Assembly (NCBI RefSeq): GCF_005960665.1
Contig: NZ_CP040676.1
Coordinates: 816,501 to 880,500, forward strand
DNA from: Exiguobacterium mexicanum
GTDB lineage: Bacteria; Bacillota; Bacilli; Exiguobacteriales; Exiguobacteriaceae
DNA length: 64,000 bases
Direction of reading: 5' to 3'
Position numbers and translations under genes: made by a program. Shown here piece by piece: positions 43,541 to 45,033 of this stretch. Each line of letters begins with the position of its first letter. Within the stretch, counting starts at the first letter, position 1. The notes under the pieces are model-generated. The model was not told where the DNA came from, made no database searches, and saw only the letters and a list, made by a program, of their open reading frames with translations.

Positions 43541-44758
43541 ATAAAAAATAAAATTATACGTCATCTCTATCTATGGACAATTATGGTAGAAATGGCGTAT
43601 ATTTTATTGGTATGTAAGCGTTATATTTTATTAGGTGTAAATAACTCGGTCACTATACTGGAGGAATAAGATTGCTATTAAGTAACAATGACATTAAAAG
43701 GGAGATAGTTAAGGCTAAAAACATTAGTATATATCCATTGAAATTGGAAAATATAAAGGGTAGTTCTTTGAATCTATCTGCAAGTAAAATGGCGTGGCGA
43801 GTCTCTGATAGAAAGTCGGCGGTTGTTGCTGATACTACTATTATAATTCCTCCTAGGGATACAGTATGTATTTATACTAATGAAGCGATTTGGGTTTCAA
43901 GAAGAGTAGGAGGTACTTATCACCCAAGGGTATCATTAGTATCTAAAGGGTTAGGACATATTTCCACTACTTTAGATCCGGGGTGGGCTGGGGTATCGCT
44001 AGTTGCTGTAAATAATCCAAGTGATAAAGAAATTGTTATAAATGTGGGCGAAGCTTTTGTTTCTGTAATGTTTTATTACTTGAAAACACCTTCCTCTTTA
44101 AATGATCATGAAAACTTAGCGAGTAGACCTGACATTGGAAAAGTTTTTGACCTTTCACCTGAGGAACATTCATTTTTAGAAATGTCATGGCATAGAAATC
44201 AGTCAAATATTACAAAAAACATGATTAAGAGCCTAGAATATAATGATTTGAAAAGCCAAAAATTAAAATTTAGACGAACCTTAACAACGATTACTTCAAG
44301 TCCTTTGTTTTCTACTATCTTTGGAGGCATTATTACTGGGGCTATAATTTATTTTTTAGGATTTAATTAATAGTCTTATTTGCAAACTTGAAATACTTAC
44401 TCAAAAAATAAAGAAAACACAGGATTCAAGTGTATAATAGTCAGGAAAATAAAAATGGCTATTACTATAGGAGTGATAATTTTGAAGCGAGGATATTTTT
44501 ATGAAGAGGTTAAGCATTTCCATAAAACTTTCGGGCATCCAAATGCTACGTATCCGAAACCGTTGACTATTGATCGGGCAATCAAAAGGTCAGTATGGAC
44601 TGCTGAAGAAGCAGTAGTTGAATTTTTATTTCATTCTGCGCAAAATAAGGAAGAATTTATAACAGCTATCGATGAATTTAAGAAAGGTTTTGAAAAATCT
44701 GTTAGTATTACCTCTGAACTATCTTTGCCATCCAGTGAAGTTGATCGTATAGTGGGAC
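43541..44758. other. AT-rich horizontally acquired patch
   Basis: Composition changes sharply right after the preceding stop codon and changes back inside the gene at 44482-44994. By hand count, 44221-44280 has 16 G+C of 60 and 44641-44700 has 15 of 60, while 44761-44820 has 38 of 60. Codon use within the patch favours A/T endings, unlike every neighbour. No flanking repeats, tRNA or integrase was seen. Confidence 0.85.
43672..44370 (+). CDS. dCTP deaminase/dUTPase-fold protein with degenerate active site and C-terminal membrane helix
   Basis: A 232-aa protein starting at TTG after GGAGG. Residues 1-140 follow the dCTP deaminase layout: LLSNNDI at the start, GSSLNL, IPPRDTVCIYTNE, PRVSLVSKGL and TTLDPGWAG. 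Compared with E. coli Dcd, the GRSSLAR nucleotide loop reads PRVSLVS, so the first Ser and the second Arg are replaced (V87, S91), and the catalytic Glu of LEFYN is Ala112. Deaminase activity is therefore unlikely, though nucleotide binding may persist. A charged linker (about 160-205) leads to one hydrophobic helix at 213-230. AT-rich, clearly foreign codon use. Function unknown; a nucleotide-sensing membrane effector is a hypothesis. Confidence 0.75.
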   Translation: MLLSNNDIKREIVKAKNISIYPLKLENIKGSSLNLSASKMAWRVSDRKSAVVADTTIIIPPRDTVCIYTNEAIWVSRRVGGTYHPRVSLVSKGLGHISTTLDPGWAGVSLVAVNNPSDKEIVINVGEAFVSVMFYYLKTPSSLNDHENLASRPDIGKVFDLSPEEHSFLEMSWHRNQSNITKNMIKSLEYNDLKSQKLKFRRTLTTITSSPLFSTIFGGIITGAIIYFLGFN

Positions 44759-44994
44759 AAGCTGACGCGCTCACGGACGCCCTCTATTTCGTGATGGGCA
44801 GTTTCGTCGAGCTCGGGCTCGACCCGGTGCCGTTGTTCGAGATCGTGCAGCGCGCCAATATGGCGAAGCTCGGTCCGGATGGTAAGCCGATCCTGCGCGC
44901 GTCAGACAATAAGGTCATGAAGCCGGAAGGCTGGTTGCCACCCGAGCCAGAGCTCGAGGCGGAAGTGCGACGCCAACTTGAAGCGAAACAGTGA
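44482..44994 (+). CDS. MazG-like nucleotide pyrophosphohydrolase, compositionally chimeric
   Basis: A 170-aa all-helical pyrophosphohydrolase. The WTAEEAVVEFLFHS helix supplies the first acidic pair and GQADALTDALYFVMG the second, followed by IVQRANMAKLGPDGKP and KVMKPEGWLPPEPE, both typical of this NTP-pyrophosphatase subfamily. TTG 44482 lies after AGGAGTG. The first about 92 codons are AT-rich like the preceding gene; from about 44759 the DNA is host-like. The reading frame is intact across the joint. It is 111 bp from the dCTP-deaminase-like gene, likely cotranscribed. Substrate unknown. Confidence 0.72.
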   Translation: MKRGYFYEEVKHFHKTFGHPNATYPKPLTIDRAIKRSVWTAEEAVVEFLFHSAQNKEEFITAIDEFKKGFEKSVSITSELSLPSSEVDRIVGQADALTDALYFVMGSFVELGLDPVPLFEIVQRANMAKLGPDGKPILRASDNKVMKPEGWLPPEPELEAEVRRQLEAKQ

Positions 44995-45001
44995 CACCAA
45001 A

Positions 45002-45033
45002 AGAGAGCCTATCGCGCGCGATAGGCTCTCTTT
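45002..45033. terminator. Bidirectional palindromic terminator
   Basis: Fifteen bases 45002-45016 are complementary to 45017-45031 in full. It ends the MazG-like gene and the convergent flavoprotein gene. Confidence 0.85.

Follow-up and report, generated by a model that had tools for sequence, protein, structure and literature searches.

A degenerate dCTP-deaminase-like protein with a C-terminal hydrophobic helix in Exiguobacterium mexicanum: a candidate membrane-tethered nucleotide sensor

What might a protein with the fold of a nucleotide-converting enzyme do at the membrane once the residues for the reaction are gone? The question is raised by a gene in the window (the whole stretch of 64,000 nucleotides that was analysed) from the 2.69-Mb genome of Exiguobacterium mexicanum. 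An earlier note, made from the sequence alone, had taken this gene as the first half of a two-gene system, in which a membrane-tethered and degenerate fold of the dCTP deaminase (DCD) type was paired with a MazG-like pyrophosphohydrolase. The features of the locus are the following:

43541 to 44755, no strand assigned: imported segment (DCD-like gene with its upstream region, plus some 91 codons at the 5' end of the MazG-like gene if its likely start is taken as the first)
43660 to 43665, plus strand: ribosome-binding site GGAGGA of the DCD-like gene, read from the sequence
43672 to 44370, plus strand: DCD-like protein with a C-terminal hydrophobic helix (232 residues, TTG start)
43672 to 44145, plus strand: DCD/dUTPase-fold domain (about residues 1-158, from alignment and structure comparison)
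44302 to 44361, plus strand: one hydrophobic helix at the C-terminus (approximately residues 211-230, from hydropathy and a low-confidence model)
44455 to 44994, plus strand: MazG-like core gene of the PRA-PH family, a chimera of an imported 5' part and a native 3' part, with TTG 44482 as its likely start

Sequence, fold and membrane helix of the DCD-like protein

The reading frame at 43672-44370 matched the Pfam DCD family PF22769 above its cut-off (E 5.5e-9, 36.7 bits against 27), while it reached only 43.5 of the 92.8 bits set for the dCTP deaminase equivalog model TIGR02274. The match to the trimeric dUTPase family PF00692 was borderline, with 21.8 and 22.8 bits in two scans and a cut-off of 22. 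Besides DCD and dUTPase, Pfam, NCBIfam and PHROGs returned for this protein unrelated weak matches below cut-off, and the group to which it belongs carries no name in these collections. A promoter and terminator scan stayed near chance (7 versus a mean of 4.0, and 2 versus 1.3).

Alignment with canonical dcd genes placed A112 at the position of the catalytic Glu, V87 at that of the Ser and S91 at that of the Arg of the phosphate loop, with R86, D102, W105, N115 and the DPGW turn retained, which is the pattern of losses and conservation that the earlier note had read from the letters. The alignment positions were assigned by way of the E. coli Dcd residues E138, S111 and R115. An AlphaFold2 monomer model, built from five sequences, had a mean pLDDT of 64; it was better across residues 31-140 (67-90 in blocks of ten) and poor at both ends, in residues 1-30 and in the C-terminal part. 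Foldseek matched this model to PDB 8y1w with E 1e-9, and the VIA comparison gave three Thermococcus-type dUTPases as the best and tied structural matches (Z 13.7, 13.5 and 13.2; rmsd 3.0 over 126 residues for the first), followed by dCTP deaminases, most of them at Z 10-12. The fold of the DCD/dUTPase superfamily was thereby confirmed, and the description of the first gene as a degenerate member, made before any search, stands on both the PF22769 match and the structural matches.

The protein nevertheless differs from each of its known relatives. It has the fold, the DPGW turn and the conserved Asn in common with dCTP deaminases (Dcd, TIGR02274/PF22769), but lacks their catalytic Glu, which lies in a TLE motif, as well as the Ser and the Arg, and it adds a hydrophobic helix at the C-terminus. 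The Thermococcus-type dUTPases (PDB 8y1w, 9ln0 and 9ln3) are the nearest solved structures by both sequence and fold, and two aligned sequences carry Met in place of the deaminase Glu; however, these enzymes have an RSSLAR loop, and their chains of about 155 residues are too short to include the C-terminal part seen here. As for the trimeric dUTPases, their phosphate-loop Ser and Arg are lost (V87 and S91), and where these enzymes have a C-terminal glycine-rich motif (motif V), none was seen in the DCD-like protein, which ends instead in the hydrophobic helix.

The single C-terminal helix, also called in the earlier note, was placed by hydropathy at about residues 212-230 and appeared in the model, with low confidence (pLDDT 42-56), at residues 211-231. 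Since the hydrophobic stretch, within the last 20 or so residues, is preceded by basic residues, it is likely, judging by the sequence, to be a tail anchor that leaves the DCD domain in the cytoplasm.

The imported segment and the MazG-like neighbour

Whether the two genes form a system depends on how they came to lie side by side. The GC content, in windows of 200 nucleotides, was 27-42% across the foreign DNA and 45-61% in both flanks. The DCD-like gene was present in one of the 38 genomes of the order. The MazG-like gene was matched in all 19 genomes of the genus (in G018 only by its C-terminal half, near a contig end), and among these the DCD-like gene was found only in the genome under study. 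The DNA identity of the MazG-like gene to that of its congeners was 36-76% at positions 44505-44754 and rose to 74-98% at 44755-44954, as measured in the 13 usable rows of 18, five reversed or cut rows having been dropped. At the other end, the match between congeners and the window ended precisely with the stop codon (43540) of the core gene upstream, which marks the left edge of the import; its right edge lies near 44755, inside the MazG-like gene. In the three congeners examined for this (of 18), only about 14-17 bp separated the upstream stop from the MazG-like start, a spacing that in one of them was computed from the alignment. Given the identity break, the end of the congener match and these near-empty sites, the sequence comparison indicates that about 1.2 kb (approximately 43541-44755) arrived as one import, which introduced the DCD-like gene and took the place of the native 5' part of its MazG-like neighbour. 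The N-terminal part of the MazG-like protein is only 54-57% identical to that of 17 congeners, so that the donor was probably an unsampled relative, in which the two genes may well have been neighbours already.

The start of the MazG-like gene is more likely to be TTG 44482 than ATG 44455, as the resulting MKRGYFYEEV aligns with the congener start MSKRYFYEEV. The recombination junction at 44755 leaves this core gene chimeric yet open. Shortly downstream, window positions 45000-45033 match congener locus L122 perfectly over 34 bp in inverted orientation, as would be expected of a palindromic terminator behind the MazG-like gene. The structure 3nl9, presumably from Exiguobacterium, is a near match to the MazG-like product.

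The proposal that the DCD-like protein and the MazG-like enzyme act as a two-gene system was therefore to be set against a history in which the second gene is an old resident. It is true that the DCD-like gene and part of the MazG-like gene arrived on one segment. In addition, the MazG-like product is weakly similar to DR2231 (E 3.5e-7 over 63 residues), and Deinococcus radiodurans MazG-like enzymes are said to cleave dUTP (PMC5122711), on which grounds the gene might stand in for a dut gene. Against this, the MazG-like gene is found throughout a genus in which the DCD-like gene occurs once, and tblastn found no homologue of it in the 53 other loci that carry relatives of the DCD-like gene, the two closest included, so that the search for co-occurrence at unrelated sites came out negative. 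The claim of foreign origin for the pair holds for the AT-rich DCD-like gene and the 5' part of its neighbour, and fails for the native 3' part of what is a core gene of the host. Considering its core status, its native 3' part, the near-empty sites of the congeners and the lack of co-occurrence, the MazG-like gene was rejected as the partner, which leaves the two-gene reading very improbable; the apparent pair is most readily understood as a by-product of the exchange.

A related membrane DCD does occur next to a MazG-type gene on two rhizobial plasmids, although the rhizobial MazG belongs to a different Pfam family and the rhizobial DCD to a different branch. The gene directly after the membrane DCD is there small and of MazG type (PF03819, below cut-off; the Sinorhizobium record annotates it as MazG), from which it follows that MazG-type partners exist in the DCD superfamily. 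In these runs (L223:5995-8085 and L225:5932-8022), the membrane DCD, the small MazG-type gene and an FMN oxidoreductase (PF00724 in Sinorhizobium) touch or overlap at their ends, and on the Rhizobium plasmid the three genes lie downstream of a Gabija GajA/GajB pair. On the Priestia plasmid pB1.1 (L224:5989-9173), a membrane DCD is followed first by an FMN oxidoreductase, a relative of that on the rhizobial plasmids, and then by a DUF4062-like protein; tblastn found no MazG homologue at this locus.

A group of membrane DCDs and its thymidylate-pathway neighbourhood

A single-protein search of genome contigs yielded relatives in Peribacillus deserti (57%) and Aquibacillus (55%), both aligned over nearly their whole length, and at two Nostoc loci. 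Plasmids contributed relatives in Priestia and Peribacillus frigoritolerans, as well as a further branch of membrane DCDs on rhizobial and Priestia plasmids; the remaining plasmid hits, mostly annotated as dCTP deaminase, and the near-duplicate plasmids H13 and H16 were kept outside the set. According to a profile search, the group is carried by 23 of the 195 genomes of the Nostoc order, a set that overlaps with the 22 of 386 cyanobacterial genomes giving strong matches (E 3e-48 or better). Any match at all was found in 144 cyanobacterial genomes, from which the 22 strong and seven weaker ones were fetched, the remaining tail resembling ordinary dut or dcd. Among 398 Bacilli genomes, the single-protein search matched four, namely the genome under study and three of one genus; of the 33 matched by a broad profile search, the strong ones (E 1e-54 or better) were likewise only the genome under study and three of one genus. 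Twenty of the Bacilli hits were fetched: fifteen were ordinary dcd genes with the Glu, three (L186, L197 and L205) had neither the Glu nor the helix, L189 was a membrane DCD, and in L196 the script found no DCD reading frame.

The alignment comprised 82 proteins (phmmer E 1e-4, at least 150 residues; initially 83, less one row that carried a large insertion), and a helix was called when a 19-residue Kyte-Doolittle window exceeded 1.5 after residue 150. The 50 proteins with a C-terminal hydrophobic helix retained the Glu in no case, the Ser in no case and the Arg in one, while the 32 without it retained them in 28, 30 and 30 cases, respectively, a split to be read with the fact that the 82 were gathered by similarity to two groups and are not a random sample of DCDs. 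The four helix-less proteins without Glu were L099, a truncated copy of the membrane type, and the three Bacilli sequences just mentioned. Within the helix-bearing group, the Asp of the DPGW turn was kept in 38 proteins and replaced in 12, the aromatic residue was kept in 49 and the Asn in all 50. The window protein, with its helix and without Glu or Ser, fits this group, and the combination of degenerate fold and hydrophobic C-terminus that had drawn attention to it proved to be a recurrent one. No description of a membrane-bound dead DCD was found in titles or the openings of abstracts among the literature matches listed; we do not claim that the group is unpublished.

In a tree made by a quick method and rooted at the midpoint, 49 helix-bearing rows and the truncated copy fell on one side (support 91), apart from canonical dcd, the fiftieth, L219, lying on the other side at the end of a very long branch. 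The window protein formed a clade with those of Peribacillus deserti and Aquibacillus (support 99), sister (84) to six cyanobacterial rows. L217, L117 and L189 made up a small separate branch of membrane DCDs, common to cyanobacteria and one Bacilli genome. At L207:4180-5925, a canonical dcd with a large, intein-looking insertion adjoins a membrane DCD/dut pair.

These loci resemble one another in their surroundings. A thymidylate-pathway gene was present within 1 kb in 40 of 54 loci, 39 from the scan of reading frames and one through the folA gene at L119 added by tblastn (the frames used were the longest non-overlapping ones, and folA at L119 and L121 was missed until then). The genes counted were those for thymidylate synthase with DUF4346, dCMP deaminase, a nucleoside deoxyribosyltransferase-like protein, ThyX, dcd, dut, thyA and folA, with Pfam names of neighbours assigned from representatives. 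Their share of all reading frames fell with distance: it was 65 of 139 within 500 bp, then 25 of 75 (0.5-1 kb), 8 of 144 (1-2 kb), 1 of 260 (2-4 kb) and finally 0 of 404 (4-8 kb), counts that are not independent events because the 54 loci are mutually related. A dut gene on the same strand lay within 1 kb in 14 loci (that of L105 being a 43-residue fragment), among them all six of the sister branch, at 0-404 bp. The eight dut products scanned, five of the six in the sister branch and three further neighbours, each matched almost the full length of the dUTPase profile.

The window gene and its two clade mates belong to the 14 of 54 loci with no thymidylate-pathway gene within 1 kb, and its link to the pathway is for this reason borrowed from its relatives. 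Through them, the tie to nucleotide metabolism supposed by the earlier note was supported. The genome itself (G000) had no PF00692 or PF22769 match besides the DCD-like gene; a congener, G013, has a canonical dcd (L188). The simple inference from these comparisons would be that the window gene descends from a DCD-like/dut pair in which dut was lost, or that the DCD-like gene was transferred separately.

Such an origin could also have left a passenger with no function: what remains, already on its way to decay, of a transferred pair whose dUTPase was lost. The orphan state is common to the window gene and its clade mates, and several cyanobacterial copies are interrupted: L099, L108, L118 and L216 carry stops or frameshifts in their assemblies, which, if they are not sequencing errors, suggests that the gene is dispensable there. 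But the window reading frame is intact and has a good ribosome-binding site, and in two other genera it has relatives that are 55-57% identical over nearly the whole length, so that decay is a very improbable explanation.

The position of the Thermococcus-type dUTPases as closest solved structures, with Met at the deaminase Glu, raised in turn the idea of an active membrane-tethered dUTPase, in which only deamination was lost and dUTP is hydrolysed at the membrane. This would agree with the Asp kept in most of the helix-bearing proteins and with a genome that has no other member of either family. However, the Thermococcus-type enzymes retain the phosphate loop, from which the membrane group has lost the Ser in 50 of 50 and the Arg in 49 of 50; that Asp is itself replaced in 12; and a separate dUTPase gene often adjoins the membrane DCD. 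We regard such an activity as improbable.

Antiphage defence and nucleotide sensing

A second proposal for the group is that of an antiphage effector, in which the dead DCD detects phage-altered deoxynucleotides and its helices depolarise or damage the membrane, while a partner dUTPase, MazG or other enzyme sets the threshold. Defence genes were found near six of the seven plasmid or mobile-looking copies (five plasmids and Peribacillus deserti, with Aquibacillus as the exception), a count to be read in the light of neighbours that were chosen by hand and have no matched background. In Peribacillus deserti, SduA (Shedu) lies 81 bp away on the opposite strand, and there is a phage-type integrase upstream. 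The Peribacillus plasmid has a SIR2 gene (PDC-S25) 30 bp upstream, one Priestia plasmid has BnzB and PDC-M09A some 2-4 kb upstream, and the other has PDC-S60 (a partial match) and PDC-M37B; on the Rhizobium plasmid the Gabija genes GajA and GajB end 486 bp upstream, and on that of Sinorhizobium CARF6 lies just beyond the operon. The patchy distribution of the group in the Nostoc order and in that of the window (23 of 195 and one of 38 genomes) would also suit a defence gene. Defence domains predicted in the DefensePredictor paper, there untested, include dUTPase and MazG (PMC13092281); the likeness is at the level of domain names.

Other observations point away from defence. PADLOC-DB 2.0.0 contained no model matching the DCD-like or the MazG-like gene at E 0.1, so the defence-database search of the first protein was negative; one plasmid relative gave a marginal match (E 0.007) and the Rhizobium one gave none. 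Most members found adjoin thymidylate genes. In the cyanobacterial flanks there was no clear excess of defence genes, with 36 near and 93 far PADLOC families at E 1e-10, and the most widely shared family had four members near and three far (140 of 141 near reading frames, one DCD-like fragment dropped, compared with 140 of 161 far ones, shuffled). At the Aquibacillus locus, where a transposase core domain lies downstream, the one neighbour scanned had no defence match. In four scans of viral contigs no relative could be confirmed, which was counted against an effector, and searches of phage records gave either weak hits only (E 1e-7 to 3e-3), mostly annotated as dCTP deaminase or trimeric dUTPase, or no hit. 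Of the two kinds of co-occurrence named in the earlier note, then, that with the second gene was seen in 0 of 53 loci, and that with defence genes near six of the seven mobile-looking copies. Because of this difference between mobile and cyanobacterial copies, defence is a live rival for the former and a weak one for the cyanobacterial majority; for the group as a whole we hold it to be possible, at well under an even chance.

The reading that we favour, and to which we give about an even chance, is that the gene, here an orphan copy, encodes a DCD pseudoenzyme which is tethered to the membrane and senses a pyrimidine deoxynucleotide. The occurrence of most relatives found among thymidylate-making genes points to a sensing or regulatory role more than to an enzymatic one, and, where a DCD dead for its reaction sits at the membrane next to enzymes producing or removing dUTP, dUMP and dTMP, a sensor or scaffold is the simplest interpretation. 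In canonical DCD trimers, dTTP is bound in the active sites and all three switch together, in an all-or-none fashion (PMC4827122). The model would run as follows. The DCD-like protein would assemble into the trimer of the superfamily, anchored in the membrane so that the DCD domains face the cytoplasm; the trimer would bind a pyrimidine deoxynucleotide of the dUTP/dUMP/dTMP pathway; and the occupancy of its sites would be converted into an output, either at the membrane or on a partner enzyme, for example a dUTPase. In the genome studied here, the protein would be an orphan, imported on the segment of about 1.2 kb.

The residues bear on the nature of the ligand. The lost Ser and Arg are phosphate contacts in DCD structures, while the Asp, the aromatic residue and the Asn mostly remain, so that the ligand may have fewer phosphates or a different mode of binding; the same loss could, against a sensor, mean a dead nucleotide site.

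A broader version, which we put forward tentatively as rather doubtful, would unite sensing and defence: a membrane receptor derived from the dTTP-sensing trimer, with occupancy gating the output and dUTPase, MazG or thymidylate partners setting the ligand, such that chromosomal copies tune dTMP and plasmid or island copies serve as an infection alarm.

The analysis corrects the partner gene named in the first reading of this locus. If the protein is indeed a sensor, bacteria that carry it would possess a membrane readout of pyrimidine deoxynucleotide pools made from a dead enzyme and connected, through the arrangement of the genes, with dUTPase and thymidylate synthesis, and the many natural gene pairs of the group would allow the idea that a dead nucleotide enzyme becomes a nucleotide sensor to be put to the test.
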